Of a stretch of DNA of 62,215 nt, positions 17,064 to 39,104 are shown piece after piece. Numbering within the stretch: position 1 is the first letter of the stretch; each line of letters starts with the position of its first letter. Origin of the DNA: a virus; IMG/VR virus record IMGVR_UViG_3300020051_001561, positions 1-62,215 of that record. One strand, 5' to 3'. Position numbers and translations under genes: made by a program. Under the pieces are notes generated by a model. The model made no database searches and was not told the DNA's origin. It saw only the letters and a program-made list of their open reading frames with translations.

Positions 17064-17417
17064 TCAAATGATATTGATATAAAGATTTTCCCTAATTGGT
17101 GCAATCAGTTCACCCATTGAATTAATGATTGAGAACTCACCTAAATACCTACCTTTTCTACGTGTGTCTCTTTGTGTCCACTTATAGAAAATATAATAGG
17201 ATGGTGTGGCATCAGGGTTTTGTTGAATCTTTTCGGTGATGAATGCGTTGTTCATCACAATCTTTGGAATACCTGTGGATTCTTCTTTCATTGAGAAACG
17301 GATTGTTGCATTGTCTAAATCCGCATCGAACAACTTCCACGAATCTGTTCGACCATCTCTAACAACCTCCATCTTTAAGATTGGTAACTCACTGTTTTGT
17401 TTTATAAAGAATTCCAT
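17064..17417 (-). CDS. Baseplate/fibre adaptor, BppU N-domain-like
   Basis: The protein has 117 aa. The start MEFFIKQNSELPILKMEV and later pattern ATIRFSMKEE, YIFYKWTQRDTRRKGRYLGE then FSIINSMGELIAP follow the phage BppU N-terminal (DUF2479) layout: f.I...s.LP.L, tv.FsM, Y.w...dt...G.y..eF. It is a clear paralogue of the first ~115 residues of the 1538-aa fibre at 21572, including a nearly identical upstream site (TATTTATAGACA). It may anchor a fibre to the baseplate. It follows a terminator and precedes the polymerase gene. Confidence 0.6.
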   Translation of the reverse strand: MEFFIKQNSELPILKMEVVRDGRTDSWKLFDADLDNATIRFSMKEESTGIPKIVMNNAFITEKIQQNPDATPSYYIFYKWTQRDTRRKGRYLGEFSIINSMGELIAPIRENLYINII

Positions 17418-17488: not shown

Positions 17489-20400
17489 TTATAATGCTTG
17501 TGGTACAAAGTCGTAACCAATCGATATGTTGTTATTACCAAGTGTAAATGATTCTGAATCACTTGCCGGAGTTAAACCACTATTCGCTGAAATTGATGAA
17601 ACCTCTTGTCCCAATACAGAACCCGCACCTTGTGTTTCTGCGTATATCTGACATCCTGAACCTAATACACCTTGAGATTCAACGTAGTAAAGGATTGTAT
17701 CACCTGGGAACGCTTGGATTGAATCCGTAGAGTCATTTCCACTACCTGTTGCTGTGTATGAAGATTGTAACACTCCATTCACGTAAATAGCTGCCGAACC
17801 TCTAGCACATGTTGCACTTGTGTAGTTAATACTAATCGTTTTTGGTGATACCGATGTCGACGGTGTTACCGTTGGTGTCTTAGTTGGTGTTCTTGTAGGT
17901 GTTCTCGTTGGTGTTGGTGACGCAGTCAATGAAATTGTTGGTGTAACTGTTGGTGTTCTCGTTGGTGTTGGTGACGGAGTTGGTGTTGGTAATGCACAGA
18001 ATGAACATGTCGTACCAAATACGTCGATTGAGTATGTTGGAGGTTCAGGTGATTCATCAAAACCAATAATTTGCCAACAAGGAGCCACATCACCACCTTT
18101 AGATGATAATGATACGTAGTCACCAACCGATGGTACTGCTGGTAAACCAGGAGCTAAGTCGGCGATTGCTTGTGTCGCACCAGGTTGACAGTTACCATCA
18201 AAGTAAGTTATCTCCTGAATTAGGAATTTATATTCAACACATGGATATGTTTGTACACAACTACTACATCTAGGGAATAATGGGTCATTAGCTGACCATG
18301 GTTGTCCTCCATCAGCTAACCAATCACCGTCTTTATTTCCTAAGTCACGGAACTCACCACCTGTATATGATGGACCGATAAATCCAACACAACCGTCAAT
18401 ATAACCTGTTTGGTTTTCTAAGTATAATGATGGATTACCTTCCTCAAGTGAATTCATAATTGATGTGTATTCAGGTCCGTTCAATCCAATTTTGTAAACG
18501 TAACTATCACAACATGCTGAGAAGTACATTGAGTAGTATACCGTTGATGGTGTTACTGAAGGAGTAACAGACGGAGTAACACTAATAGATGGTGTTATCG
18601 TCGGCTGAGGAGTTTGTGTTGCCTGTGGAGTGTTAGAAGGTGTAACCGTTTGTGTAGGTGCTGGTGTTTGTGTTGCCTGTGCCGTTGGAGTAACTGTTGA
18701 ACTTGCCGTAGGTGCTGGTGTTGATGTCGGTGCTGGTGTACCTGTTGGTTCAGGTGTTGAAGTAGGTGCTGGTGTTGATGTCGGTTGAGGTGTTGACGTA
18801 GGTGTTACACTTGCAGTTTGTGTAGGAGTATTAGTTGGTGTCTCAGTTGGTGTTGGAGTAACAGACGATGTTGGAGTTACACTTGCAGTCGGAGTAGGAC
18901 TCGATGTTGGTGTATTAGTTGGAGTATATGTCGGTGACGGTGTCACTGAACTTGTAGGTGTTACCGTTGATGTTGGAGTGTTACTTGGTGTTACTGTGTT
19001 AGTAGGTGTTGGTGACTGAGTAGGTGTGTTTGTCGGTGTTCTTGATAGAGAAACCGTTGGAGTCACTGTACTTGTTGAAGTAACGGTTGGAGTAACTGTT
19101 GGTGTTACTGATGACGTTACTGAAGGCGTTGGTGTGTTTGTAGGTGTCTTCGTAGGAGTAACTGTTGGAGTTACTGAAGAAGTTACCGTAGATGTAATAG
19201 TTGCTGTCGGTGTCAACGTAGCTTGTGGTGTCGTTGAAGGTGTTACCGATTGAGTTGGTGTTTGTGTTGGTGTGTTTGATGCAGTAATTGTAGGAGTTAC
19301 AGAAGGTGTAACTGATATTGTTGGTGTTACCGTTGATGTTGTAGTAGGTGTAAATGATACTGTTGGAGTAGGTGTTGTACTTACCCCTGGCGTTTGAGAT
19401 ACCGATGCGGTTACTGATGGTGTCGGAGTGAATGTTACTGACGCAGTTACTGAAGGTGTAGGTGTCTTTGTAGGTGTAGGTGTTTTTGTTGTTGTTGGTG
19501 TGGCAGTTGTTGTAGACTGTGGAGTTGCCGTCGGTGTTGGAGTTGTAGTGGACTGTGGTGTTTGTGTAGGAGTAACTGTAGTTGTAACAGTTGACGTAGG
19601 TGTAGGTGTTGAAGTACCACCAGGTGTTTGAGTCGGTGTACTCGTTGATGTAGATGCTGGTGTTGATGAAGGCGTAACCGAACTTGTAGGTGTCGGAGTC
19701 GACGTTCCTGCAGGTGTACTGCTCGGAGTGACTGATGATGTTATTGTTGGTGTAAATGATATTGTTGGTGTTGGTGTAGCACTTGAACCTGGCGTATTTG
19801 ATACTGAAACTGTTGGAGTTACAGTCGGTGACGGAGTTGCGGTCACTGATTGAGTTGGAGTATTTGTAGGTGTAGACTCTGGAGTCGATGTTGGTTGTGC
19901 AGTTCCTGTTGGTGTTGGAGTTGCAGTACCACCTGGAGTTCCTGTTGGAGTACTTGTATGTGTTGGTTCTGGTGTTGATGAAGGAGTAACCGAACTTGTT
20001 GGTGTTGGAGTTGCCGTACCACCTGGTGTTCCTGTCGGTGTACTTGTAGATGTTGGGTCTGGTGTTACAGATACACTCGCAGTGACTGACGGTGTTGGTG
20101 TTACCGTACCACCTGGAGTCTGTGTAGGTGTATTTGTTGGTGTTGCAGTTGCCGTGTTAGACGGTGTAACTGAACTACTTGGCGTATTTGTTGGGGTAAC
20201 ATCAGGTGTAGTTGAAATAGTTGGTGTTGGTGTGTTACTAACACCTGGTGTATCAGAAACTGAAACTGAAGGTGTTGGAGTACTTGTTGTTGTTGATGTT
20301 GGAGTAGATGCTGGTGTACCTGTTGGTGTAGGTGTGGATGTTGTCTGTGGAGTACTTGTAGGTGTTTGTGTCGGCGTAGATGTTGAAGTAGATTGAGGTG

Positions 20401-21031
20401 TACTTGTTGGAGTTGCCGTTGTAGACGCAGTCGGTGTTACTGTTGATTGTGGTGTACCTGTTGGCGTACTTGTTGAAGTGGCTTGAGGTGTTGATGTTGG
20501 TGATGCTGTAACTGTTGCCGTTGGAGTTACTGTAGATTGAGGAGTTCCCGTTGGTGTACTTGTGTGTGTTGGTTCTGGAGTTGAAGTAACAGTTGCCGTG
20601 ATAGTTGCTGTTGGTGTTGACGTGGCTTGTGGTGTACTTGTTGGTGTTCTTGTTGGAGAAACCGTCTGAGTAATTGTTGCGGTCATCGTAGGTGTTACCG
20701 TAGATGTTATCGTTGCAGTGATAGATGGAGTCACCGAAGGTGTTACTGATGGAGTAACTGATGCCGTCACAGAAGGAGTTAACGTAACCGTAGGTGTAAC
20801 TGTTTGTGTTTGTGTCGGAGTAGGTGTTGGGTGACCAATCACATAAGTGTAAGACGCTTCGTATGTTTCAGAATAGATTGTATAAGTTCCGTAAAAGTAG
20901 TCAGTAACTAAATCCGCAGGCATAGTAACAACACCAAAGTCCGTTACAGTAGAACCTGTGTCTGCAGTAAAAGTAATGTGAACACTTTCACCTACTAAAT
21001 TGTCACTCAAAAATCTAATTCCGTTTGCCAT
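17489..21031 (-). CDS. Giant Thr/Pro-rich fibre protein 1 (1180 aa)
   Basis: Residues 1-67 form a beta-like head domain ([20 protein letters not shown]). Residues about 68-828 are an almost pure Thr/Pro/Ser/Val repeat (TPTxTPxxT, VTPSVT). Then come a Cys-rich domain (about 829-1017, with [12 protein letters not shown] and CSFC), a short TP linker and a C-terminal domain (about 1066-1180, starting [20 protein letters not shown]). It looks like a stalk with a terminal receptor-binding knob. The repeat resembles mucin or extensin stalks rich in Ser/Thr for O-glycans. It has TATTTATA 4 nt before its ATG. No known family over the repeat; fibre role is inferred from neighbours. Confidence 0.7.
18545..20830 (-). 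repeat. Thr/Pro low-complexity tract in fibre 1
   Basis: The plus strand is G/T-rich with recurring GTTGGTGTTAC-type units; the minus strand encodes about 760 residues of TP-type repeats. Units are imperfect but share a 6-residue-like period. It is prone to slippage and recombination. Confidence 0.85.
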
Positions 21032-21571: not shown

Positions 21572-24500
21572 TTATGGGTAAGGGTTGGTAGCATTAAAGT
21601 TGTTTAATACTTGTAATGATGTTAATGCGGTATTGTATAATCTAATAATACCGTATTCACCTCTAAAGTCTCCAGTGTTATCAGCACCAGGATTCTGTTG
21701 ACCGAAGAAGATATTATTATCAACACCACTTGATAAGTATGAAACACCATTCTGACTATCATTCAATACACCATCGATGTATAGACTTTGTGTTGCGTTT
21801 GCAAAATCCCAAACCAATACCACTTGATACCACTGACCTTGGTTGAATGGTGTCGTTGAGTATAAGTAATTATTCGCCCAAATCTTACCTCTAAATCTGC
21901 CAGTTTCAGCAGCTATCGGTGGCATGTTCCAATTATTTTGTGGGTTAGTCTCTGACATTGACATGATGTTACCATCTACATCATCAGGTTTAATCCATAA
22001 CTCATATGTAAATGATTGGGTGGCATTACCAGTACCTGCAACATTACTTAATAAAATGTAATCATCGATACCGTCTGTAACTATAGACTTATCCGTAGAG
22101 TTATATGTCGGTCCATTAACTAAAGTACCATTATAGTTACCCTGTAAATCCGTCCACAGAGTACCTGTTCCTGGATATGAACTTGTATTTCTCGCATCTA
22201 AATTAACTAATAAATTAGATGTAATAATATTATTCGGTGTTGATGAAGGAGTCACAGTTGGTTGTGGTGTTTCAGTTACTGTTGGAGTTGGTGTCACATC
22301 CGCAGTTGATGATGGCGTTACTGAAACTGTAATAGATGGTGTTGGTGTTACCGGTGATGATGATGATGGTGTAACTGTCGGTGTTACAGTCGCAGTTGAG
22401 GTTGGTGTTGGTGAGGGAACTGGCCCTGTAGACATCACTATAAAGTCATTGTCATCAGTAATAATATAGTTACCTAAATCATCAACCAATACATTTTGTT
22501 GTACAGGCGTATTAGATGGTGTTATCGATGGAGTAACACTACTCGTCGGTGTGTATGTTGGAGTTGTTGTTGGTGTAGGAGTATTAGACGCGGTGACTGT
22601 AGGTGTTGGTGTTACATATGGTAACGGTGATAATGAATATCTTTCGTAATAAGTGTTATAGAATGTTGTGATTTCTGAATCTGTTAATGCTCTATCATAA
22701 ATGGCCACGATACCCATATTACCATCAAAGAATTGGTCAGCAGTCCAGTTACTATCTGCAATTAAGTTGTTTGTTCTCGTTAAGTTATTTGGTAATACAC
22801 TTGTTGAACCTGATACCGATGTTGTTTGATTAAACACTTTGAATGTTGAACCATCGAGACGACCACCATAGAATCCCCAACCATTATTTGTTATACCATT
22901 AGTTATGTTTTCTGCTAATACTTGAGTGGCCCCATGACGAAGTTCAAACCACAAGTTATTAGTTGACGATTCTCTACCTAAAAGAATATTATCACTTGCA
23001 CTACCATTACCAAAATCAATAATTCTTTCCCAAGTAGACACTCCGTTGAAATTAATGAAGGTTAATATTGTAATACCATTACTAAAGTTATCAAATCCTG
23101 AAGGAGCAGTACCATATTGTGATGTACCATTAAATGTTACAATACCACCGTTGGATGATGATACCGTTGGAGAGTTATATAAGGTAACATCATTTCCAGA
23201 ACCACTGGTATCTGTCCATGTAGTCGATGTTGCATTTGCACCATCAAGTAATAATATTGGTGAACCTACAACCGATGTAGGTGACGGTGTTGGTGTCAAT
23301 GTAGGTGTTGGAGTGGCTGAATTAGCAAATGGTGTTGCCGTGAAGTCCATTGTCGGAGCTGGTGTATCAGTCGGAGTAATTGACTGAGTAACCGTAGGTG
23401 TTACAGTTGATTCAGGTGTAACTGAAGGTGTAACTGATTGAGTCAATGTTGGAGTTACAGTGGCAGTTTTAGTAACCGTAGGTGTGTTAGTTGGAGTATT
23501 AGACGGTGTTAATGTCTGAGTAACAGAAGGACTCACCGTTTGTGTTGGCGTGTTTGTATTTGTCACAGTTGGAGTAACAGTAGAAGTAACTGAAGGTGTA
23601 ACTGTGTTAGTTGGTGTATTAGATGGTGTTAATGTTTGAGTAACAGAAGGACTCACCGTTTGTGTCGGTGTGTTCGTAGGAGTAACTGTTGGAGTACTCG
23701 TAGATGAAGATGTTGGTGTTATAGTATTTGTTGGAGTAATAGTTGCTGTAACTGTCGGAGTCACTGTACTTGTCGGAGTAGAAGTAGGACTTGATGGTGG
23801 AGTTACTGATACTGAAATACTTGGTGTGTTTGTTGGTGTATAGGTAGGAGTTACCGTTGATGTTACAGTTGGAGTTACTGATGCAGTCACTGATGGTGTC
23901 AATGTTGGTGTAGTTGACGGAGATACAGTCTGAGTTGGCGTGTTTGTATTTGTCACTGTAGGAGTAACGGTAGAGGTAACCGAAGGAGTTACAGTTTGAG
24001 TTGGAGTATTAGTTGGTGTCAATGTTGGTGTTACCGAAGCAGTAACAGATGCGGTCGGAGTATTTGTATTCGTAACCGTTGGTGTAACTGTAGATGTTAC
24101 CGATGGTGTTACCGTACTTGTTGGTGTATTAGTAGGGGTTACGGAAGAAGTAACAGTTGCTGTTACCGTTTGTGTCGGTGTGTTTGTTGCGGTTACCGTT
24201 GGCGTTACAGACGCAGTAACCGAAGGAGTTACAGTCTGAGTCGGAGTATTGGTTTGTGTAATAGTTGGAGTAATAGAAGCAGTCACAGTTTGTGTCGGAG
24301 TATTGGTTGCGGTTACCGTTGGTGTTACAGATGCAGTAACCGAAGGAGTTACAGTCTGAGTTGGCGTATTAGTTGGTGTTACTGTCGGAGTTACAGAAGC
24401 CGTCACAGTTTGTGTCGGTGTATTAGTTGCCGTCACAGTTGGAGTTACCGATGCGGTTACCGAAGGAGTCGGAGTTTGTGTATTTGATGGTGTTACGGTT

Positions 24501-26188
24501 TGTGTCTGAGTATTAGATGGAGTAACAGTCTGAGTTGGAGTATTTGTTGGAGTGACACTTGGTGTTGGTGTATTTGTGGCAGTATATGTTGGAGTTGCCG
24601 TACCTGTCGGAGTTTTCGTCAATGTAATTGTTGGTTGTGGTGTATTAGATGGGGTTATGGTAGGAGTGGCAAATGGTGTTGCGGTAATGTCACTTGTTGG
24701 GGCCGGCGTATCTGATGGTGTTGCAAATGGTGTTGCCGTCACATCGTTAGTTGGTGCTGGTGTATTTGAAACTGATGGAGTCACAGTACCAATAGGAGTT
24801 GCAGTAATATCAACAGTAGGTGCCGGTGTGTCAGTCGGTTGAGGCGTATTAGTAGGAGTAACCGTTGGAGTGGCAAATGGAGTTGCCGTAATGTCACTTG
24901 TTGGAGCTGGTGTGTCTGACGGAGTCGCAAATGGAGTTGCCGTAATATCTACAGTCGGTGATGGAGTATCTGTTTGTGTTAATGTCGGAGTGAATGTTGG
25001 GGTTGGCGTTGGAGATGCACCCGCAGTCAAACTTGGAGTTATAGTTGGTTGAGGGGTATTTGTGGCAGTTGGTGTAACTTCACTTGTTGGTGTAGGTGTT
25101 TGAGTTGAAGTAATACTTGGGGTAACACTTGGTGTTGAAGTGTTTGTAGGTGTTGATGTTGGTGACAACAATGGAGTACCTGAAGGACTTGCCGTTGGTG
25201 TAACCGTTGAAGTTACAGTTGGCGTTGCCGTTGACGTTGGAGTCTTAGTTGGTGTACTCGTAGATGTTAATGTAGGTTGTGGTGTTGATGTTGGAGATTC
25301 ACTTGGTGTTATAGTTGGAGTTACAGTATTCGATGGAGTAACCGTTGGGGTTACAGATGAACTAACTGAAGGTGTAACTGATGGAGTTACACTCATAGTT
25401 GGTGTTGGACTAGATGTCGGAGTTACAGAAATAGATGGTGTAACCGTAGGTGTCGGAGTTGGACTCGATGTTGGAGTTGGTGTTAATGTTGTATCAAACA
25501 CAAACTTAGGTTCAACAACATATCTAAAGTCTTTAGAAACGGTATTAGTATCAACTTTAATGTTTCTATAGTAAACCTCGCCTGTAACTAAGTCATATCT
25601 TCTATTAACTTCAAGTAATCTTTGACCTGTTTTCTCACCCTTAGGGATTGTAATCAATACCTTATTTTCAATATTGTTACCATCAGACATCTCAATCACA
25701 TTATCAAACGTGATTTCAACATCGGCATCAACAGGTAATTCCGCAGTTGCAGTGTATAATGAGATAACTGAACCACTCGTATAATCGGCAGTCAACGAAA
25801 TAAAGTTAGTTCTCTTATTTCTACGACAACACATGTCAACATCTGCAAATGAATCCGCAATACTAATAAAGAGGTTACTTTCTAAAGGAACCTTAGAAGT
25901 ACCTTGACTATTCTTTATTGTAAAGAATCCATGAAATCTACCCTGTTTTTTTGTATTTCTTTTTGAGAATTGGTACGAAAGTATATAACCTGAACCGTCT
26001 TCTTTTAACTTAATAGATGCGGGTAGGTTGGCTATTTTATACATTCCCGTCTCAACATCATACATCGAGAAAGTTACCGTAGATGCAGAAATAAGTGGGT
26101 CGAGTTGGTTGTAACCGTTCCTCGACTCATTAATAACCTCTACTTGTAGTTTAGGTAATGTACTATTTTTCTTTATAAAAAACTCCAC
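21572..26188 (-). CDS. Giant Thr/Pro-rich fibre protein 2 (1538 aa) with two lectin-like domains
   Basis: Starts at GTG 26188. Residues 1-~115 are BppU-like and paralogous to the 17064 gene. About 121-232 are a further beta domain. About 233-972 are TP repeats, some with DITATPFATP units. About 973-1190 and 1317-1538 are two concanavalin/LamG-like domains (PILLLDGANAT, LVNLDARNTSSYPGTGTLWT, GIVAIYDRALT, FTYELWIKPDD, GIIRLYNTALT). They are joined by another TP linker carrying NVLVDDLGNYIITDDNDF. The order anchor, stalk, lectin, linker, lectin suggests a baseplate-attached adhesion fibre that binds host glycans. The motif TATTTATA ends 4 nt before the start. Confidence 0.75.
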   Translation of the reverse strand: MEFFIKKNSTLPKLQVEVINESRNGYNQLDPLISASTVTFSMYDVETGMYKIANLPASIKLKEDGSGYILSYQFSKRNTKKQGRFHGFFTIKNSQGTSKVPLESNLFISIADSFADVDMCCRRNKRTNFISLTADYTSGSVISLYTATAELPVDADVEITFDNVIEMSDGNNIENKVLITIPKGEKTGQRLLEVNRRYDLVTGEVYYRNIKVDTNTVSKDFRYVVEPKFVFDTTLTPTPTSSPTPTPTVTPSISVTPTSSPTPTMSVTPSVTPSVSSSVTPTVTPSNTVTPTITPSESPTSTPQPTLTSTSTPTKTPTSTATPTVTSTVTPTASPSGTPLLSPTSTPTNTSTPSVTPSITSTQTPTPTSEVTPTATNTPQPTITPSLTAGASPTPTPTFTPTLTQTDTPSPTVDITATPFATPSDTPAPTSDITATPFATPTVTPTNTPQPTDTPAPTVDITATPIGTVTPSVSNTPAPTNDVTATPFATPSDTPAPTSDITATPFATPTITPSNTPQPTITLTKTPTGTATPTYTATNTPTPSVTPTNTPTQTVTPSNTQTQTVTPSNTQTPTPSVTASVTPTVTATNTPTQTVTASVTPTVTPTNTPTQTVTPSVTASVTPTVTATNTPTQTVTASITPTITQTNTPTQTVTPSVTASVTPTVTATNTPTQTVTATVTSSVTPTNTPTSTVTPSVTSTVTPTVTNTNTPTASVTASVTPTLTPTNTPTQTVTPSVTSTVTPTVTNTNTPTQTVSPSTTPTLTPSVTASVTPTVTSTVTPTYTPTNTPSISVSVTPPSSPTSTPTSTVTPTVTATITPTNTITPTSSSTSTPTVTPTNTPTQTVSPSVTQTLTPSNTPTNTVTPSVTSTVTPTVTNTNTPTQTVSPSVTQTLTPSNTPTNTPTVTKTATVTPTLTQSVTPSVTPESTVTPTVTQSITPTDTPAPTMDFTATPFANSATPTPTLTPTPSPTSVVGSPILLLDGANATSTTWTDTSGSGNDVTLYNSPTVSSSNGGIVTFNGTSQYGTAPSGFDNFSNGITILTFINFNGVSTWERIIDFGNGSASDNILLGRESSTNNLWFELRHGATQVLAENITNGITNNGWGFYGGRLDGSTFKVFNQTTSVSGSTSVLPNNLTRTNNLIADSNWTADQFFDGNMGIVAIYDRALTDSEITTFYNTYYERYSLSPLPYVTPTPTVTASNTPTPTTTPTYTPTSSVTPSITPSNTPVQQNVLVDDLGNYIITDDNDFIVMSTGPVPSPTPTSTATVTPTVTPSSSSPVTPTPSITVSVTPSSTADVTPTPTVTETPQPTVTPSSTPNNIITSNLLVNLDARNTSSYPGTGTLWTDLQGNYNGTLVNGPTYNSTDKSIVTDGIDDYILLSNVAGTGNATQSFTYELWIKPDDVDGNIMSMSETNPQNNWNMPPIAAETGRFRGKIWANNYLYSTTPFNQGQWYQVVLVWDFANATQSLYIDGVLNDSQNGVSYLSSGVDNNIFFGQQNPGADNTGDFRGEYGIIRLYNTALTSLQVLNNFNATNPYP
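23272..25493 (-). repeat. Thr/Pro low-complexity tract in fibre 2
   Basis: About 740 residues of TP-type repeat. Near-duplicate units such as [15 protein letters not shown] occur in tandem in 23990-24500, showing recent internal duplication. Confidence 0.85.
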
Positions 26189-26207: not shown

Positions 26208-29200
26208 TTATATTGTTATTGCCCATTTATTGGATAGATATGTTTCGACTGAGTTAAGTTCAGATGGAGGTAACGCCCTACTATAAACTAATACATCAAA
26301 AATAAATCCATTATAGAAATATTGTTCATTTCCTGATACTTGTGTAGTGTAAGACACACCCATAAATGCATATGTGGTAAGTGGACTGGTCTGAGTATCC
26401 ACAGGAGAAGTAAACGCTAAACCTTGTTCAACACCATCTATTCTAAATTTCAATCTTTCGGCATCATTGGAACCCGTACCACTATACACTACCGATAGTA
26501 TGTGTGGGTTTTCATCAACAGGTTGTCCACCTGACAACGCAAAACCACCGGCTTCTGCAATGTTATAGGTACCACCACTTTGTCTTATAAACAGAGAATT
26601 TAGACCTGTATTACCATCTTCACCACCCTGAATGTATTGTGAGTCCGCAGTTGGGTTTAATGACCTAACTACAATAACTAATGTTTGACCTGAAATACCT
26701 TGTAGGTCAGTAAGTGGATTAACACTTAAACCATCTGTTGTTCCATTAAAGTATACCCCACCTAAACCATTCTGAACATTTGACCACCATTCAGGTGCAG
26801 GTCCACTACCACCACCTATTGGATTGGCATTGTGTGCACTTGCAGATGAATCTTCCCATTGATTAAATGTATCCCCACTTGTTGGTGTTGGTGTGAAGTA
26901 AGTATCCAAATCACCTTGATAGTAAATCTCAAGTGTCGGGTCACTAGGAATGACCGCTTGTGTTGGTGACGGTGTTAAGGTTTGTGTGATTGTTGGTGTT
27001 ATAGTATTTGTAGGTGTGAATGATGGTGTTGGTGTTGGAGTAACGCTCGCAGTTATTGATGGTGTTGGAGTTGGAGGTGTAGGAGAACCACACTCAGAAC
27101 ATTCCACAAATGGACCTTCAGTCATTGTTAAATTTATATCACCTGTTGCCTCACCTATGACAAGATAACAATTACCACCATCATCCTTAATATAGTTACT
27201 AGAAACGGCACCGAGTGTATTCAATGCGTAGTAAATTGTACCAGCATCTATACTACATGTACTTAGATTCGTAACTTGTCTTAATTGGAATACAGAAGGG
27301 GCAACTTCTGATGGTGTCACTGTAGGTGTAACTGTTGGCGTTACGGATGAGGTAACTGATGGAGTTAAACTAATCGTTGGTGATGGTGTGACAGAAGAGG
27401 TAGGTGTGACAGTCAATGTTGGAGTGTTTGTTGAAGTAGCAACAGGTGTCCCTGTTGGTGTTGAACTAACAGTGGCAGTTGGGGTAACTGTAGAAGTTAC
27501 CGTTGGAGTATTAGTTGGTGTCGGAACAGGAGTTCTTGTTGGTGTTAAACTAATTGTTGGTGATGGAGTAACTGATGGGGTTACTGATGACGATGGGGTT
27601 ACAGTATTAGTTGGTTCAGGAGAACCTGTAGGGGTGTTAGATGGAGTGGCAGTAACTGTAGATTGTGGAGTACTTGTAGGTGTTGGTGTAGGTGATTCTG
27701 TTGATGTTATTGTTGGAGTCACAGTACTGGTTTGTGTATTTGTTGGTGTAACATCAGGAGTTGAAGATATTGTAGGAGTTGGTGTGGCACTTGACGGTGG
27801 AGTTGGAGTAACCGATGCAGTAACCGTATTCGTCATTGTAATTGTGGCAGTGATTGTTGGGGTAACTGTAGAAGTTACCGTTGGTGTGACTGTTGACTCA
27901 GGAGTCTGAGTCGGTGTTAATGTATTTGATGGAGTAACCGTCGCAGTATTGGTCTGTGTTATGGTAGGAGTAATTGAAGGTGTTGGAGTTGGTGTACTGG
28001 TTAGTGTCTGAGTAACTGTTTGTGTTGGTGTACTGGTCACTGTTTGAGTAGGTGTTTGAGACGGTGTAAGTGTCTGTGTAATCGTGGAGGTCATTGTTGG
28101 TGTTGGAGTCACTGATGATGTTACCGTTTGAGTAGGGGTATTGGTAGTTGTTACAGTTGGTGTAATAGATGTTGTCACCGAAGGAGTAACAGTTTGTGTC
28201 GGAGTAGTAGTTTGAGTTGGTAACGGTGTAGATGTAGGAGTTACCGATATTGTTGGAGTTGGTGATGGAGTAATAGACAACGCATTGAAGTCAGTATCAC
28301 AATCTGATGCCACTATATTAAAGTCTGACCTACATTCCACACTTGATAAATCAATACCAAATCCACAATCAACACCAACAGTCGTGAATCCAAATCCACA
28401 TGTTGATTCAACAACTGTAAATCCAAAGTCACAAGCAATGTCATTGGCAATAAAGTCAAACTCACAACTTTCAATATCGATACCAAAGTCGAAGTAACAT
28501 TGTGAAAGTATCTCCAAACAGTTTGGACACCAGAAGTCAAATAAATTATAAGTGTCTCTTTCAATTCTAAAGTTGTGTTGAACCTGTGGTGAACTTAATG
28601 GTTCAGTGTAAAATCTCATCTTTGAGATACCTCCCATAAATGTACCACCAAAGTTTGGCTCCATTTCAATATTTGTCTGTAACTCATTTAATGAAGTTGC
28701 AGATAAACTCTCATTTGGCATACACTCTGGGTCTTGAATATAAGGACCTTCAAACGCTGTACAACCACTTGGTATTAAAGACTCTCTTAAACCTTGTGTA
28801 CCTCCACCCCATGATATTGTATAAGGAACACCAATCTGTTTTTCCTTTTCAGTATTAAGTTCGTGAGGGATAATTTCCTCAAAATCTTCAATAATCATAA
28901 AGAGGTAACCATTCACATATAGTTTCAAAAGACCTCGTCTATCATCAACTTGATTCAACCATTTCTGAGTCCACTGTATTTCCGTTATCTTTTCATCATT
29001 AAGACCACCCGGCTGAATAAGGTTCGTGGAGACATCGTAAGTTGATGCGGTGTAGGTTTCTTTCCTAATATCACCTAATCCACCAACATTCAATAAATCA
29101 CAATCTTCTAAGTACCTATACCTTTCAAACACCGCCGAAATCATCAACCATCTTTCCTTTGTTCTTTCAGATTCGGCAATTGGATATCCACATGTGTCGT

Positions 29201-30428
29201 AGATACCTGCAGTTGAACATATTTCAGTGAAACAATACCCTGATGTATATGTTAAACCTGTGGTCTCACATGAACCCGTTGTAATACAGTCACCAGTATA
29301 TTTTACATATTTTACACATAGATGTGGGTTTTTAGGGTCACCGTCCAATCTAAGTGACATACCGTTTGATAAAATATCAAAACGAGGGTCTTGAGTTTCA
29401 CCTGTCCATTTTACATCACAACCTCTACACTCCAAACCGTTGTTTCGTGTTACGGTGGTTGCCGTTGTTGGATATATCTTCATACAATTAGAAGATGTAA
29501 CCCCCGTATCGGCACATGCACAAGTTTTGAAACAGTTAACCAAATCTTCAGTTACTCTTTTATATTTCTCAACTGTGGCACCACTGATGGTAACACCAAA
29601 GTCACAACCGAAGTCATTGTAAGTCTCAACATCTCCACTGGCAGGATGATAAAATTTGTTTTCAGCCCTTGTACCAAAGAAGAAGAACGTACCGGCATTA
29701 CCTGAATAAACATCGTTCAAATATTCTTGGTGGTCCATCAAAGTATACTCATCAACCTGACGTGGTTTGATAAGTGTTTCCATTGTCCAACCTTTATTAA
29801 CTCTCTCAGGGAAAACCTCATAATCATACCCATGAAGTTTGTAAAATCCTTGCATAAAACCACCATATAATTCTTGGTAATAACCCACAGAACTATCAGT
29901 TTTATTTACTATGTTGTATACCGTTTCTTTTGTATTACCTGAGAATCTATGGTTAGGTTGATTTGTAAATGAACCTACAGGGTGTAGTTTCATCCTTCTA
30001 TCATGGTATAATGGGTCGTGAGTTTTACTCGGAAAAAGACCCATTGAATAGTATAGAGTGTCGCCCGTAATCTTATTAAAAAGACCCACATCAATCATTG
30101 TAAGTCCCGCATCACAAAGTCCTGTGAATCCTGTATAACAAGATAAATCTTCATTATTTGGGTTATAGTAATTCGTTGAAGTTAACGTATTTCCTGTGTT
30201 TGAGGCATCCCAGTAAAGGTTTGGTTGAGTTGTGGTACCCGTATTGGTTAGGTCAAAATTAATAGGAAGACGGTTACCATCATTTAAGGCAATAACATCG
30301 GTTGAGAAGATTACCTCCTCATCATAATCACGTTCATCGGATGCTAAAGTGAGGTCAAAATACTCACTCGTATCCATTCTTACCTTGAACCTTTTGAAAT
30401 TATAATTATTGATGCTCTGACCTGCCAT
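26208..30428 (-). CDS. Giant fibre protein 3 (1406 aa) with Cys undecapeptide repeats and lectin-like domains
   Basis: Residues 1-~640 are a non-repetitive region with several Cys pairs and LamG-like phrases (GWTMETLIKPR, ISKMRFYTEPLSSPQVQHNF). Residues 644-720 are seven exact 11-residue repeats, each starting with Cys. TP repeats follow (about 721-1040). Then comes a Cys-containing insert, another TP linker, and a C-terminal concanavalin-like domain (about 1159-1406; SGQTLVIVVRS, IFDVLVYSRALPPSELNSVE). A large fibre or spike exposed on the virion is likely. TATTTATC lies 12 nt before ATG 30428. It is divergent from the gene at 30482. Confidence 0.7.
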   Translation of the reverse strand: MAGQSINNYNFKRFKVRMDTSEYFDLTLASDERDYDEEVIFSTDVIALNDGNRLPINFDLTNTGTTTQPNLYWDASNTGNTLTSTNYYNPNNEDLSCYTGFTGLCDAGLTMIDVGLFNKITGDTLYYSMGLFPSKTHDPLYHDRRMKLHPVGSFTNQPNHRFSGNTKETVYNIVNKTDSSVGYYQELYGGFMQGFYKLHGYDYEVFPERVNKGWTMETLIKPRQVDEYTLMDHQEYLNDVYSGNAGTFFFFGTRAENKFYHPASGDVETYNDFGCDFGVTISGATVEKYKRVTEDLVNCFKTCACADTGVTSSNCMKIYPTTATTVTRNNGLECRGCDVKWTGETQDPRFDILSNGMSLRLDGDPKNPHLCVKYVKYTGDCITTGSCETTGLTYTSGYCFTEICSTAGIYDTCGYPIAESERTKERWLMISAVFERYRYLEDCDLLNVGGLGDIRKETYTASTYDVSTNLIQPGGLNDEKITEIQWTQKWLNQVDDRRGLLKLYVNGYLFMIIEDFEEIIPHELNTEKEKQIGVPYTISWGGGTQGLRESLIPSGCTAFEGPYIQDPECMPNESLSATSLNELQTNIEMEPNFGGTFMGGISKMRFYTEPLSSPQVQHNFRIERDTYNLFDFWCPNCLEILSQCYFDFGIDIESCEFDFIANDIACDFGFTVVESTCGFGFTTVGVDCGFGIDLSSVECRSDFNIVASDCDTDFNALSITPSPTPTISVTPTSTPLPTQTTTPTQTVTPSVTTSITPTVTTTNTPTQTVTSSVTPTPTMTSTITQTLTPSQTPTQTVTSTPTQTVTQTLTSTPTPTPSITPTITQTNTATVTPSNTLTPTQTPESTVTPTVTSTVTPTITATITMTNTVTASVTPTPPSSATPTPTISSTPDVTPTNTQTSTVTPTITSTESPTPTPTSTPQSTVTATPSNTPTGSPEPTNTVTPSSSVTPSVTPSPTISLTPTRTPVPTPTNTPTVTSTVTPTATVSSTPTGTPVATSTNTPTLTVTPTSSVTPSPTISLTPSVTSSVTPTVTPTVTPSEVAPSVFQLRQVTNLSTCSIDAGTIYYALNTLGAVSSNYIKDDGGNCYLVIGEATGDINLTMTEGPFVECSECGSPTPPTPTPSITASVTPTPTPSFTPTNTITPTITQTLTPSPTQAVIPSDPTLEIYYQGDLDTYFTPTPTSGDTFNQWEDSSASAHNANPIGGGSGPAPEWWSNVQNGLGGVYFNGTTDGLSVNPLTDLQGISGQTLVIVVRSLNPTADSQYIQGGEDGNTGLNSLFIRQSGGTYNIAEAGGFALSGGQPVDENPHILSVVYSGTGSNDAERLKFRIDGVEQGLAFTSPVDTQTSPLTTYAFMGVSYTTQVSGNEQYFYNGFIFDVLVYSRALPPSELNSVETYLSNKWAITI
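27310..28268 (-). repeat. Thr/Pro low-complexity tract in fibre 3
   Basis: About 320 residues of TP-type repeat following the Cys repeats. A shorter one (TPTPSITASVTPTPTP) lies at about 26950-27080. Confidence 0.8.
28269..28499 (-). repeat. Seven tandem 33-bp units coding an 11-residue Cys repeat
   Basis: Units in order: CYFDFGIDIES, CEFDFIANDIA, CDFGFTVVEST, CGFGFTTVGVD, CGFGIDLSSVE, CRSDFNIVASD, CDTDFNALSIT. Cys is always residue 1 and hydrophobic residues recur at 3, 5 and later odd positions. There are no gaps. It directly follows FWCPNCLEILSQ. Confidence 0.9.
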
Positions 30429-32968: not shown

Positions 32969-34186
32969 ATGTCAAAGATAAAAGTATTAGTATTACCCTC
33001 CGACAGAACAGGTGTGGGTAAATTTCGTTCTGTTGAACCTCACATTTTCTTACAACAGGCAAAGCCTGAAGAATTTCACATAGATATTGATTATGAACCT
33101 AAGGTTAACGACCTGAATTATTGGAAACAATATAATATGGTTCATTTTCATAGGTCTATTGGTAGAGACCCTGTGGCTTCTGTTGAGTTAATTAAAAAAC
33201 TTAACGGAATGGGTATTGTAACCGTAATGGATTTGGACGATTATTGGTTACCAACTAAGGACCACCCTGCACATAATTTGGTAGTTCGAAATGAATTACA
33301 CAAAAGAATTATTGATAACTTAAGAGTTGCACAATATGTGACAACAACCACAACTATATTTGCTGAAGAGATTAAGAAGATTAACAAAAACGTTTTTATC
33401 TTACCTAACGCTATCAATCCCGATGAACCACAATTCAAAGCAGAAACACAACCGTCCGACAAATTAAGGTTTGGTTGGTTAGGTGGTTCTTCACACTTAG
33501 AAGACCTAAAACTTTTAGATGGTACTTTTGGTAAACTTAATAGTGTAAAAGATAAATACCGTCTTTATCTATGTGGTTTCGATATTCGTGGCAGTGTCAC
33601 AGAAATCAACCCACAAACAGGTGAGCAAAAACAAAGAACAATCAAACCACACGAAACTGTATGGTACAGTTATGAAAAGATTTTCACTAATAACTACAAA
33701 TTGGTAACTCCTGAACAAAAAGATTTCTTAGAAAAGTTCACACCAAATGAACCATACACATTAGAAGAAGACCCATTCTATACTCGTGTTTGGACGGAAC
33801 CTGTAACTTCATACGCTAAGAATTACTCTAACTTTGACGTTTCATTGGCACCACTTAAAAATCACATCTTTAATAGAGTTAAATCACAATTAAAAGTTAT
33901 TGAGGCAGGTTTTTACAAAAAGGCATTGATTGCATCAGATATTGGTCCTTACACCATCGACTTGAAACATTCATTACAAAATGGTAACTTTGTGGATGGA
34001 AACGCTTTGTTGGTTAAAGAAAATAGAAATCATTCTGATTGGTCTAAGTTTATGAAAAAACTTATCGATAACCCGTCATGGGCTGAAGATTTGGGTGAGA
34101 GACTATATGAAACCGTATCAAAGACTTACGACTTAAATATCGTTACTGAAACACGAGCACAAATTTATAAGGAGATTACAAAATGA
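32969..34186 (+). CDS. GT-B glycosyltransferase
   Basis: The protein has 405 aa. Features include VLVLPSDRTGVGKFRSVEPH, VVTVMDLDDYWLPTKDHPAH, FILPNAINPDE, RFGWLGGSSHLEDLKLL and the C-terminal SLAPLKNHIFNRVKSQLKVIE with EAGFYKKALIAS. This is the two-Rossmann GT-B layout (GT4-like). It probably transfers sugar from an NDP-sugar. It begins the sugar block; the next gene overlaps by 4 bp (ATGA). A candidate for decorating virion proteins; the acceptor is unknown. Confidence 0.75.
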   Translation: MSKIKVLVLPSDRTGVGKFRSVEPHIFLQQAKPEEFHIDIDYEPKVNDLNYWKQYNMVHFHRSIGRDPVASVELIKKLNGMGIVTVMDLDDYWLPTKDHPAHNLVVRNELHKRIIDNLRVAQYVTTTTTIFAEEIKKINKNVFILPNAINPDEPQFKAETQPSDKLRFGWLGGSSHLEDLKLLDGTFGKLNSVKDKYRLYLCGFDIRGSVTEINPQTGEQKQRTIKPHETVWYSYEKIFTNNYKLVTPEQKDFLEKFTPNEPYTLEEDPFYTRVWTEPVTSYAKNYSNFDVSLAPLKNHIFNRVKSQLKVIEAGFYKKALIASDIGPYTIDLKHSLQNGNFVDGNALLVKENRNHSDWSKFMKKLIDNPSWAEDLGERLYETVSKTYDLNIVTETRAQIYKEITK

Positions 34187-34884
34187 TAAACGCACCAAAG
34201 ACAAAACTATTATTTTTTGACTTAGAAACTGTTGGTATTGAACAGGACTTCAAGACATTGAAAAAGAACAAACCCGAACTTGCAAAATTGTTCGAGTCCT
34301 ACCAAGGTTGGTTATTAAAACGATACCCTGAAGAGGAAGGTAATTCCATCGAGGAAATGTTTTACAACAAAGCTGCCCTTATTCCTGAGTTTGCAAAAAT
34401 TATAGTGGCGTCTTTCGCCTTTTATGCTCCCGATGGGAAAATACACAAACAAACATTCTCCTCAGATGAAGAGATTGAAGTATTGACAGAAATCAAAAAT
34501 CTACTCACCAAAGTGGGTAAATTGGATTTCTTCCTTTGTGGACATAATATTAAAAACTTTGACATCCCAATGATTGGTAAACGAATGATTATCAATGGGA
34601 TGAAACCACCAGCACTTATCCCACAATACGATACAAAACCGTGGGACATCAAAGCGGTGGATACAATGGAGATTTGGAAGTTCGGAAATAACTTCTCAAT
34701 GGCTTCATTAGAACTTATGTGTGTTTCCATGGGTGTATCATCACCAAAAGAAGGTGAGGTTACAGGAAACATCGTACATCAAACTTATTGGGAAACTGAA
34801 GCATTAGACCCCATCGCAGCATATTGTGAAGAAGATGTTGATGTATTGGCAAAATTAATGGATAAAATTTATAATTTAGTATAA
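34183..34884 (+). CDS. DnaQ-like 3'-5' exonuclease
   Basis: The protein has 233 aa. Exo I is FFDLETVG, Exo II is CGHNIKNFDIPMIGKRM and Exo III is AAYCEEDVDVLAKLM (Y-x3-D). All four acidic residues are present. The layout matches the predicted polysaccharide/DNA polymerase-associated exonuclease family (DNA_pol_B_exo2). Probably supports replication. An AAGGAG-like run before the ATG looks accidental because other genes lack it. Overlaps both neighbours by 1-4 bp. Confidence 0.78.
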   Translation: MINAPKTKLLFFDLETVGIEQDFKTLKKNKPELAKLFESYQGWLLKRYPEEEGNSIEEMFYNKAALIPEFAKIIVASFAFYAPDGKIHKQTFSSDEEIEVLTEIKNLLTKVGKLDFFLCGHNIKNFDIPMIGKRMIINGMKPPALIPQYDTKPWDIKAVDTMEIWKFGNNFSMASLELMCVSMGVSSPKEGEVTGNIVHQTYWETEALDPIAAYCEEDVDVLAKLMDKIYNLV

Positions 34885-35483
34885 TGGGAAAATTTAAGGA
34901 TATGACAGAGGGTCTTAAAATGTTGAAAGACCTACAAAAGAATTTAGGTGGCATGAGTAGCATGACCGACCCACAAGAAATGTTGAGTTCATTAGGTTTG
35001 GATATGGACCAAATAAATGAACAGTTTATTCAACAAACCGCACCAAAAACAGTATTACGATACTCATACAAATCAGTAAACAAAGAACCTGAATACGCTT
35101 ACCCAACAGACTCAGGATTTGATTTAAGAGCCAATGAAAAAGTTACATTGGGTCCATTGGAAAGATACTTAGTACCGACAGGTCTATTCTTAGACATCCC
35201 TGAAGGTTACGAAGTTCAGGTTAGACCTAAGAGTGGCTTAGCAATCAAAAAAGGTTTATCTGTGGTAAACACACCAGGAACTGTAGACCAAGGGTACACA
35301 GGTGAAATTAAGGTTATTCTTATTAACCTCAGCAATGAAACACACACAATAGAAGTTGGTGATAAGATTGCTCAAGCAGTTTTAACTCCTGTAATGTCGG
35401 GTAAATATGTAAACCTACAAAGAGTCCTTAATGTCGACGATAAAGACCGTGGAGATAACGGTTTTGGTTCAACAGGAAACTAA
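34884..35483 (+). CDS. dut: dUTPase with N-terminal extension
   Basis: The protein has 199 aa against about 150 for a usual trimeric dUTPase. All five motifs are visible: DSGFDLRA, RPKSGLA, NTPGTVDQGYTGEIKV, GDKIAQAVL and RGDNGFGSTG. It removes dUTP to keep uracil out of DNA. The extra ~55 residues at the start (MGKFKDMTEGLKMLKDLQKN...) are Met/Leu-rich and helical, of unknown use. Start ATG overlaps the upstream stop (TAATG). Confidence 0.9.
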   Translation: MGKFKDMTEGLKMLKDLQKNLGGMSSMTDPQEMLSSLGLDMDQINEQFIQQTAPKTVLRYSYKSVNKEPEYAYPTDSGFDLRANEKVTLGPLERYLVPTGLFLDIPEGYEVQVRPKSGLAIKKGLSVVNTPGTVDQGYTGEIKVILINLSNETHTIEVGDKIAQAVLTPVMSGKYVNLQRVLNVDDKDRGDNGFGSTGN

Positions 35484-35484
35484 T

Positions 35485-37674
35485 ATGTTAACAATAGGAT
35501 ATAGTACAAAAAAGATAGACCCTGAATTTAGAGAATATATTGAGAAATCGTGTGGGTTAAAAGGTGTTGAAGTAATCCCATTTGAAAACCCTGGTACACA
35601 TTCACTCACCGAAGCGTATAATATCATTCTTGAGAAATCAACGAATGATATTGTTGTGCTTTGTCACGACGACATTTATTTTGAAAAAGGTAATTGGGGT
35701 AACAAAGTATTGAAACATTTCAAAAGAAATCCTGAATACGGGATTATTGGAGTTGCGGGTTCTAAGTTCATGCCAAAATCAGGTATGTGGTGGGAAATAC
35801 CTACTGAAATGTATGGTGTAGTAAATCACGAACATGAAGGAAAAAAATGGACATCAAAATATAGTGAACCAAAAGGTAATAAATTGGACCAAACCGTTTT
35901 AGTAGATGGTCTTTTTATGGTGGTAAACAAACCAAACCTAAAAACTCAATTTAATGAAGAGGTTAAAGGGTTCCATTTCTATGAAGTAGACTTCTGTTTT
36001 AGAAACTTATTAGAAGACGTAAAGATAGGTGTTTTTTATGATGTTAGAATTACGCATAAGTCTATTGGTATGACCAATGAACAATGGGAAAAAAATAGAC
36101 AACAATTTGTAAAAACCTATCAGGACAAATTACCTGTTTTACTTCCAACAAACTTCATAAAAAAACCAGTTAAAAATAATGAACCTTTAGTCACAATTGC
36201 AATGCCCATTTACAACTATGCAAAAAGACTAAATCCAACACTACAGTCAGTATTTAATCAAGATTATACCAACTTTGAAATTGTCATAGTAAATGACGGT
36301 TCAGACGATGAATATTGTCTAATGAAGTTAAATTCTTTAGATGGTCATGAAGGAATTAGAATAATACACAAAGAAAATAGTGGAGTTTCATCGACAAGAA
36401 ATCGTGCAGTTAAAGAAGGTAAAGGTGAATATATACTACCTTTGGATGCGGATGATATGATTTTACCTTCATATATTAAACAAGCTGTTGGTATATTAAA
36501 AACTAATCCTAATATAAGCCCAGTCTATTGTGATACGCACCACGTTGGTGAACTACAAGGAATAGAAAAAAGACCTAACTGGAGTACAGACCAACTAATG
36601 AAAGGTCCATTTATTGTTAATAGCTCATTATACCGTCGAGAGGCATATGAATATGTTGGAGGTTATGATGAAACACTACAAGGTTGGGAAGATTATGATT
36701 TTTGGATAAGGATGTCTAAGGAGGGTTACGAGGGTAAACATATACCTAAACCCCTATTTGTGTATTTTCACCACGAAAAAGACGGTTCAGTTTCTACTGA
36801 AGCAAACAAAGACCAACAAAAACTGTACGAAACCATAATGAAGAAAAATTTCATGAATACTCAGACTTATGTTTTCAATGATAGAAATATAACACCTGAC
36901 AATAAAATGAACTGGGGTGATTTAGTACCCTATAAAATCATTAATGAATTGTTTGATTCTAATGTAAAAGAGAGTGACGTATTCAATGTAAAACAACCTA
37001 ACGCAAATTATACAATATACTCAACAGGTAGTGTGATGTTATTCACTAAACCAAATAGTATTGTGTGGGGGACAGGATGTATAGATAAGGGTATGATTGG
37101 TCAAAACCCAAGTAAAGTTTATGCCGTTAGAGGACCCTTAACCCGAGAAGAATTATTAAAAAGAGGGATTGAATGTCCTGAAGTTTATGGTGACCCAGCC
37201 CTACTTTATCCAATGATATATAATCCAAATATAGAAAAGAAACACAAATGGGGAATTATACCTCATTACATTGAATTTGAATCTGCCAGAGACAGAGAGG
37301 TACTTAAAAACCTTGAAAACCAAGGATTTAAGATTATCGACATCTGTTCAGGAGAAAAGGAATTTATAAACGAATTACTTGAGGTTGAAAACATTTTATC
37401 GTCAAGTCTTCATGGTTTAATTATGGCAGATGCTTATGGGATTCCTAACGCAAGGGTAAACATCTCAAATAAACTTATAGGTGGAGATTTTAAGTTCAAA
37501 GATTATTGTTTATCTGTAGATAGAAAAATTGACTTAGGTTATCAACTGACTAAGGACACCAAAATAAGTGATATCGAAAATATATATTTTAATAAATCAA
37601 TTAAGTTTGATAGTAATAAATTATTAAACTCTTCACCATGGAGTTTGAAAAAAATAAAACAATATGAAATATAA
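35485..37674 (+). CDS. Three-domain GT / GT2 / pyruvyltransferase fusion
   Basis: Taken from ATG 35485 (729 aa), two bases after the dut stop. Residues ~1-200 look like a GT-A domain (DIVVLCHDDIYFEKGNWGNK, YGIIGVAGSKF). Residues ~220-460 are GT2: TIAMPIYNYAKRLNPTLQSV, IVIVNDGSDD, LPLDADDMILPSYI and WEDYDFWIRM. Residues ~470-700 match polysaccharide pyruvyltransferase: MNWGDLVPYKI, WGTGCIDKGM, VRGPLTREELLKRGI, GDPALLYP and SSSLHGLIMADAYGIP. It would build and ketal-modify a glycan. Such a fusion is unusual. Function is inferred from domains. Confidence 0.75.
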   Translation: MLTIGYSTKKIDPEFREYIEKSCGLKGVEVIPFENPGTHSLTEAYNIILEKSTNDIVVLCHDDIYFEKGNWGNKVLKHFKRNPEYGIIGVAGSKFMPKSGMWWEIPTEMYGVVNHEHEGKKWTSKYSEPKGNKLDQTVLVDGLFMVVNKPNLKTQFNEEVKGFHFYEVDFCFRNLLEDVKIGVFYDVRITHKSIGMTNEQWEKNRQQFVKTYQDKLPVLLPTNFIKKPVKNNEPLVTIAMPIYNYAKRLNPTLQSVFNQDYTNFEIVIVNDGSDDEYCLMKLNSLDGHEGIRIIHKENSGVSSTRNRAVKEGKGEYILPLDADDMILPSYIKQAVGILKTNPNISPVYCDTHHVGELQGIEKRPNWSTDQLMKGPFIVNSSLYRREAYEYVGGYDETLQGWEDYDFWIRMSKEGYEGKHIPKPLFVYFHHEKDGSVSTEANKDQQKLYETIMKKNFMNTQTYVFNDRNITPDNKMNWGDLVPYKIINELFDSNVKESDVFNVKQPNANYTIYSTGSVMLFTKPNSIVWGTGCIDKGMIGQNPSKVYAVRGPLTREELLKRGIECPEVYGDPALLYPMIYNPNIEKKHKWGIIPHYIEFESARDREVLKNLENQGFKIIDICSGEKEFINELLEVENILSSSLHGLIMADAYGIPNARVNISNKLIGGDFKFKDYCLSVDRKIDLGYQLTKDTKISDIENIYFNKSIKFDSNKLLNSSPWSLKKIKQYEI

Positions 37675-38524
37675 TTTTGACTACATACTGAATAACATCA
37701 AAACATCTGAGTTTATTTCAGAACCTTTTGAACATCTTTTGATTGATGATTTCTTATCTCAAGAACACTTTAATTTATTAATTAATAATAAACAAATCCA
37801 TTTTGAGGAGGTAAACAGTAATAATGATTTAAGGGATAGATTACACAAAAACAATTTTCAACCAATCCCTTTTCCTGGATGTACTACTAACGAAGACTTA
37901 TATTTTGAATTATTAGAACAGGGTAGGTTAAACGAAGCAAAAACTGAAGGAGATTCTGAAGGTGTGGGAATTGCATATAATTTAACCAATACAAATGATG
38001 ATTTTATAAAACATTTAATGCATTTTCTTAATAGTAATATATTCAAAAGTACGTTAGAAAATAAATTCAATATAAATCAAGAAACTAGAGTTACCACTAG
38101 AATTCAAAAATATTTAACAGGTTATGAAATATCACCTCACCCCGATATTCGTCAAAAAGCATTAACCTATCTTTTGAATATTAATAAAAATAAAGAATCT
38201 GAAAATCTTAATATCCATACATCACTACTAAAATTAAAAGAAGATTATAACTTTATTTATGATTATTGGAACAAGAATACCAAAGAAAACAGAGCTTGGG
38301 TTTCGTGGGATTGGTGTGATATCGAAAAAACAGTCACTAAAAATAATAGTATGGTTATCTTCAAACCTACTGACTATTCATTACATGCGGTAAAGTTAGA
38401 TTACGACCATCTAAAACAACAAAGGACTCAAATTTATGGTAATCTTATGTTTAGTTATCCTCCAAGATATGCAACTCAAAATATTAGTAAATTTAGAGAA
38501 ATGATTGAACGTGGACAACGATAA
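37664..38524 (+). CDS. 2OG-Fe(II) oxygenase, prolyl-4-hydroxylase-like
   Basis: The protein has 286 aa. The C-terminal half has the double-stranded beta-helix signature: H159-P-D161 (in YEISPHPDIRQ), H241 (in SLHAVKLD) and R254 (in QQRTQIYGNLMF). These are the iron and 2-oxoglutarate binding residues. Pro-rich phage fibres are encoded in the same window, so Pro hydroxylation is possible, but other 2OG substrates are equally consistent. It overlaps the previous gene by 11 bp and the next by 20 bp. Confidence 0.65.
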   Translation: MKYNFDYILNNIKTSEFISEPFEHLLIDDFLSQEHFNLLINNKQIHFEEVNSNNDLRDRLHKNNFQPIPFPGCTTNEDLYFELLEQGRLNEAKTEGDSEGVGIAYNLTNTNDDFIKHLMHFLNSNIFKSTLENKFNINQETRVTTRIQKYLTGYEISPHPDIRQKALTYLLNINKNKESENLNIHTSLLKLKEDYNFIYDYWNKNTKENRAWVSWDWCDIEKTVTKNNSMVIFKPTDYSLHAVKLDYDHLKQQRTQIYGNLMFSYPPRYATQNISKFREMIERGQR

Positions 38525-39104
38525 TATTGCTTTTATACATATAAATAAATGCGGGGGTACAAGTATCAAATATGTAAATCCCGAAAAAAAACTTATCTAT
38601 ATGGCATTAAACAATGATTACTTACTTAATCTAAAAAATAACAAGTCTTGGAGAGATATTGAAAAAATAACATTTGTTAGAAATCCATATAATAGAATAA
38701 TTTCATTGTTTTGTATGTCGGTTAGAGACCAATATAAATTCACATTTGATGAAATTATTAATATTATTACTGATGATAGTATAAAATATCGTGCTGAAGA
38801 TGGTGGAATGATTAAGAACACTAAAGAGTATATTAAAAGACACGGTTTACCAATGACACACGAACATTACTCAGTATATGATAAAGAAACTAAAACATTA
38901 AATGTTGACCATGTTTTTAAGATTGAAGAAATAAGTGAAAAATCTAATATAATAAAGAAATTACTAGGTATTACACAAGATATTCCACACAAAAATAAAA
39001 CCTCTAATTGTGTCGATTTAGATTACTTTAGTAAAGAACAAATAAGAAAAATAAATGATTATTTTCATTTAGACTTCTCAATTTTTAATTATGAAAAATT
39101 ATGA
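38505..39104 (+). CDS. Sulfotransferase-like protein
   Basis: The protein is about 199 aa from a TTG at 38505 (GTG 38511 is an alternative). IHINKCGGTSIK is the PAPS 5'-phosphosulfate loop and KITFVRNPYNRIISLF is the 3'-phosphate element of Sulfotransfer_2 type enzymes. It would move sulfate from PAPS to a sugar or protein. It lies inside the glycan block. The rest is AT-rich and more divergent. Confidence 0.7.
   Translation: MNVDNDNIAFIHINKCGGTSIKYVNPEKKLIYMALNNDYLLNLKNNKSWRDIEKITFVRNPYNRIISLFCMSVRDQYKFTFDEIINIITDDSIKYRAEDGGMIKNTKEYIKRHGLPMTHEHYSVYDKETKTLNVDHVFKIEEISEKSNIIKKLLGITQDIPHKNKTSNCVDLDYFSKEQIRKINDYFHLDFSIFNYEKL

Follow-up and report, generated by a model that had tools for sequence, protein, structure and literature searches.

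The protein of 1406 amino acids encoded in the window (the whole stretch of viral DNA that was analysed, 62,215 bases from an IMG/VR virus record) contains an array of seven 11-residue units, each starting with cysteine, that is confirmed as a real, conserved repeat. The decisive basis is its exact 11-residue register, which recurs in 22 homologues. We propose that the array is a modular beta-strand/turn structural element, folded as a stacked stem with core-facing Cys residues, at the C-terminal end of a lectin-type phage fibre or tailspike protein; we give this reading a probability of about 50%.

Sequence and conservation of the array

The Cys residues of the window array lie at positions 644, 655, 666, 677, 688, 699 and 710 of the protein, spaced exactly 11 residues apart, and open all seven units (units 1–4, CYFDFGIDIES, CEFDFIANDIA, CDFGFTVVEST and CGFGFTTVGVD; units 5–7, CGFGIDLSSVE, CRSDFNIVASD and CDTDFNALSIT). 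This bears out the preliminary description of seven gapless, Cys-started units. That description also placed hydrophobic residues at positions 3 and 5, which holds for position 5 in every unit (Phe, with one Ile) but for position 3 only in units 1–5, where it is Phe, units 6 and 7 having Ser or Thr. When 31 Cys were placed at random in 1406 residues, counting arithmetic runs of any period from 6 to 30, a run of seven occurred in none of 20,000 trials and the maximum was five. TRF reported no DNA tandem array over the region and the units share only 36–61% DNA identity pairwise, so at the DNA level the window array is no tandem duplication.

Scanning 2.9 million viral contigs with residues 1–743 identified 54 loci, and use of the array region as query gave further contigs. 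In all 22 array-bearing IMG/VR homologues the array follows the same domain and keeps the 11-residue register without an indel. Including the window, 23 members contain 92 units, with three copies in nine members, four in nine, five in two, six in two and seven in the window alone. Except in one relative (L014), the chain of the array-bearing relatives runs 7–16 residues past the start of the last unit, and in none of these 21 does it stop before position 7 of the putative strand. A Thr/Pro-rich (TPT) linker follows the array only in L014, with five units, and in the window. Programmed frameshifting of the short members into a downstream TPT frame was looked for and not found; the downstream frame opens with MEFFIKKN or a similar sequence. 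The array is missing from about 40 loci of more distant relationship, where the CxxC motif gives way to a linker, a stop or a different domain.

The units were defined by their first Cys, yet the register never skips. Position 1 is Cys in 92 of 92 units, position 3 is Phe in 82% and position 5 is Phe in 86%; position 4 is Asp, Gly or Asn in 100% of the 92, and position 7 is Ile, Val or Ala in 79%. For a 14-member subset, the hydrophobic fraction at positions 1–7 was 1.00, 0.24, 0.91, 0.00, 0.98, 0.24 and 0.78, with polar residues at positions 9 and 11. From this unit pattern we infer an amphipathic beta-strand followed by a short turn, with the Cys on the Phe face. The alternation of hydrophobic and polar residues would suit the beta-solenoid that the preliminary description listed among its options.

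Some features are specific to the unit index: unit 1 begins C[YF]F, unit 2 mostly has N/D-E/D-I/V/L at positions 8–10 and unit 3 begins CDFGF or CNFGF in most members. Units of the same index are 54% identical between members, more than the 35% seen between unlike-numbered units within a member, which indicates an old unit order. The DNA of later units resembles that of unit 3 (0.73–0.81 in L011, L013, L014 and L017), and therefore the array has likely grown at its C-terminal end by unit duplication. The ratio dN/dS, for pairs where it was defined, was 0.01–0.25 in the array, where single values are rough because the array is short, compared with 0.02–0.14 in the N-terminal domain, the array usually being somewhat higher. 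Judged by these ratios, the array is under purifying selection. On a tree of the N-terminal domain, array presence and absence require three changes, which would fit one gain and two losses, although the tree is unrooted and the counts do not distinguish gain from loss.

Distribution of the repeat

The strict DNA pattern CxFxFx6CxFxFx6CxF was searched over the same 2.9 million viral contigs. Among the best 80 of 102 stretches, clearly coding arrays occurred solely in this fibre-protein family, directly after a WC..C junction, and the others of these 80 were antisense-type frames. A profile search of genome contigs with the array found none; 36 stretches of the strict DNA pattern in such contigs were, on visual inspection, taken as antisense frames or frames of DNA tandem repeats in non-relatives. 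One Acidobacteriales contig (L204:4777-4952) carries five copies of CGFSFMTNVKG, with the same period and C-x-F-x-F motif; these units are near-identical, form a DNA tandem repeat and are probably unrelated. When about 50,700 phage genomes were searched by tblastn with the whole protein and with the array, there was no match, or a chance match only (Bacillus phage CM1, E 2), and an alignment of the units alone was too poorly conserved for a locus search.

No Pfam family matched the array. A PDB search returned only a chance-like match to a CCCH zinc finger (NAB2-like, E 0.0018), by its Cys spacing, and no repeat of this kind was found described in literature searches. The earlier statement that no family with this pattern was known thus agrees with what we found, there being no convincing Pfam or PDB family match. 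As far as searched, the array appears to be an undescribed repeat that in these collections occurs in a single family of fibre-type phage proteins only.

Protein architecture and phage context

In the array protein, an N-terminal domain leads through a CxxC junction into the array. A TPT linker comes next, then a small Cys module, which a second linker connects to a C-terminal LamG domain (Table 1). The junction is also retained in most array-less homologues. An AlphaFold2 model of residues 1–729 (37 sequences) had a jelly-roll core of moderate to good confidence, with many residues at a pLDDT of at least 70. Its best match by VIA-align was the tailspike of cyanopodophage Pan3 (PDB 9vyh; Z 15.1 over 226 residues, 12% identity), and many ConA-like domains aligned with Z 13.6–15.1. 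As modelled, the N-terminal domain thus has the ConA/LamG jelly-roll fold. The PDB matches included sialidases, neurotoxin receptor domains and glycosidases, which have the lectin fold alone in common with it and are uninformative on function. Pfam gave no family above its curated cut-off for the window N-terminal domain, including Laminin_G_3 (PF13385), which was matched by 2 of 37 homologue domains with a best E of only 0.015. A BFVD entry from an uncultured Caudovirales phage (A0A6J5L643, uncharacterised and unannotated) belongs to the same family (48% identity over 662 alignment columns). The preliminary description placed the repeat in a fibre; the lectin/LamG content of this putative phage structural protein suggests that it is indeed fibre-like.

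Table 1. Coordinates of the array gene, its protein features and the downstream gene in the window
Feature	Residues	Position	Strand	Basis
Putative fibre-type structural protein with array (1406 aa)		26208..30428	-	ORF; homologues
N-terminal conserved domain, predicted ConA/LamG jelly roll with inserts	36-637	28518..30323	-	AlphaFold2 (confident core only); VIA-align; conserved in 54 loci
Loop insert, one unit-like stretch (CDFGVTISGAT)	275-285	29574..29606	-	Alignment, tally
Junction CxxC (C634-P-N-C637)	634-637	28518..28529	-	Alignment
Array of seven 11-residue units	644-720	28269..28499	-	Translation, homologue alignments, chance test
Thr/Pro/Ser-rich (TPT) linker after array, ~320 residues	721-1044	27297..28268	-	Translation
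Small Cys module ending ECSEC	1045-1113	27090..27296	-	Translation
C-terminal second LamG domain (Laminin_G_3)	~1228-1391	26256..26747	-	Pfam, 29.6 bits (cut-off 27.6)
Downstream gene, N-terminus xEFFIKKNSTLP		21572..26188	-	Comparison with relatives; Pfam Laminin_G_3 at C-terminus

The small Cys module, which has spaced Cys residues, ends in CxxC and sits between TPT linkers, had no match in a Pfam search. Similar stretches (TCSFC, TCVEC and DCEVC) were seen in linker-borne modules of an 1180-aa protein of the window, L014 and L028.

The T4-type contractile tail sheath encoded in the window, which also has genes for a family B DNA polymerase and a phage DNA helicase, had its best-covered matches in an uncultured 484-kb phage and a Microcystis phage. 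At 1061 aa (4343-7528, minus strand) the sheath has a long extra N-terminal part, and only its last ~300 residues match sheath families. The array protein is one of several very large Thr/Pro-rich proteins encoded in succession, of which two contain LamG domains. Further giants of 1180 and 1538 aa (17489-21031 and 21572-26188, minus strand) are mostly TPT linker, and the second ends in LamG. In 16 of 16 array-bearing relatives inspected, the gene immediately after the array gene has a counterpart of this second protein's N-terminus; in array-phage relatives (L015, L018 and others) the gene encodes a short linker-less protein of ~130 aa. Its N-terminus is also resembled in outline by a 117-aa ORF at 17064-17417 (minus strand) that starts MEFFIKQNSELP. 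Beside the Thr/Pro-rich fibre genes, the plus strand from 32969 to 42179 carries glycosyltransferase-like genes (32969-34186 and 35431-37674) and a UDP-glucose/GDP-mannose dehydrogenase gene (39928-41094), which might serve glycosylation of the mucin-like TPT linkers or surface sugar synthesis.

Proposed stem, alternatives and known systems

In the model we propose, each unit would form an amphipathic beta-strand over positions 1–8 (C-x-F-[DGN]-F-x-[IVA]-x) and end in a turn of three residues, and successive strands would stack into a short beta-helical stem, either within one chain or interleaved among the chains of a fibre trimer. Cys1, Phe3, Phe5 and Ile/Val7 would face the interior, with Asp, Asn or Gly at positions 2, 4 and 6 on the exterior. 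Stem length would be adjusted through C-terminal addition of 33-bp units. The chain stops shortly past the last putative strand in most phages, while in the window phage and L014 the Thr/Pro linker would prolong the stem; it bears additional modules, which in the window include a second LamG domain.

Array pLDDT was ~27 in the AlphaFold2 model of residues 1–729 and averaged 34 when the array region was modelled alone (23 sequences); such shallow single-chain predictions neither favour nor rule against a stacked or interleaved beta-stem. Structure prediction, one of the follow-ups suggested in the preliminary description, gave no confident array fold. The contrary outcome envisaged there, a disordered linker with no conservation, was not what we found: although its predicted fold is of low confidence, the array is conserved under purifying selection. 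Three-unit arrays would be very short for a solenoid, unless oligomeric or capping the lectin domain. No sequence relative of the array was found among known structures.

A narrower version of the proposal is tentative, though we consider it possible: an undescribed beta-helical stem in which one inner Cys per 11-residue layer (three if trimeric) would form a buried column of thiols, disulfides or metal, with length tuned by 33-bp units. If the array folds as we propose, it would provide phage fibres with a new short, length-tunable beta-repeat with an invariant inward Cys per layer, similar in its use to the needle of T4 gp5, and would bear on fibre stability, trimer engineering and phage fibre extension. 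The ~20 natural length variants (3–7 units) make the question of the fold directly testable.

The invariance of Cys1, stricter than that of Phe3 or Phe5, could instead indicate a solenoid stapled by disulfides, the stacked Cys of adjacent coils or chains being oxidised extracellularly. Other invariant Cys occur in the N-terminal domain (C97, C105, C303, C381, C387, C413 and C443 in the alignment), and the protein contains 2.2% Cys compared with 0.77% over the window proteins sampled. Nevertheless, arrays have three, four, five, six or seven copies with no parity rule, with or without inclusion of the loop Cys; since copy numbers are odd as well as even, obligatory intrachain Cys pairing is unlikely. 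The Cys also sits in the Phe-bearing row, and phage assembly generally takes place in the reducing cytoplasm. The disulfide ladder put forward as an option in the preliminary description is weakened by the lack of parity and by the position of the Cys, and we consider it unlikely; disulfides or metal between chains are possible.

It is more doubtful that there is no separate stem and that the array strands are instead added to the LamG sheets, extending an edge or forming a cap jointly with the unit-like loop at residue 275. A CDFG[VI]-type loop insert is present in most of the 22 array-bearing homologues and in none of 15 array-less ones, and arrays go down to three units. Against this, the insert is missing in array-bearing L017–L019 and divergent in L011–L013, and seven units exceed the need of one edge. 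The association of the insert with the array is suggestive, the tree giving just two to three independent comparisons, too few for a test.

A metal column is slightly more doubtful still. Here Cys together with outward Asp, Asn or Glu, or three-Cys layers on a trimer axis, would bind Zn, Fe or, at the acidic face, Ca. The invariant Cys would suit such a column, as would the strongly acidic composition (in the window array, 15 residues are acidic and 1 is basic), with Asp/Asn at alternating positions 2, 4 and 6 and an acidic position 9. However, there is no known metal motif, and none of the 14 arrays tallied contains His, which weakens this option of the preliminary description and sets the array apart from the CCCH finger, defined by three Cys and one His ligands. 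A His-type zinc site is less likely than the proposed stem, as is an intrachain disulfide ladder. A functionless, low-complexity unfolded tail arising from repeat slippage is very improbable: low AlphaFold2 confidence, the Thr/Pro linker that comes next in the window and the distant homologues without an array would agree with it, but there is no DNA tandem repeat, selection is purifying, the register is indel-free across ~20 phages and the Phe/Ile/Val-rich units are unlike a linker.

The ConA/LamG-type phage tailspike and fibre proteins, such as the Pan3 tailspike and members of PF13385, share the core fold predicted for the N-terminal domain, the window protein having a second LamG domain C-terminally. 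To our knowledge, no 11-residue Cys array is known in proteins of this type. The RTX calcium beta-roll is built from the nonapeptide GGxGxDxxx, whereas the array has a period of 11, GGxGxD in no unit and no Pfam match. The beetle antifreeze beta-helix (PMC8038014) likewise repeats a short Cys-bearing coil in exact register, but with 12 residues, two Cys per coil and disulfides, compared with 11 Phe-rich, acidic residues and as a rule one Cys in the array. In phage T4 gp5, a short repeat (VxGxxxxx) builds a trimeric beta-helix whose surface carries an N/D ladder (PMC4576200). The 11-residue C-x-F-[DGN]-F unit, with Cys at position 1 and no VxG, differs from this octapeptide and no sequence relation was seen, a trimer being only a possibility for the array. 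Both are short repeats in phage tail proteins, with hydrophobic residues that lie inside, Asn/Asp outward and length adjustable by units in gp5 and, if our model holds, in the array, which suggests a likeness of kind rather than of family.
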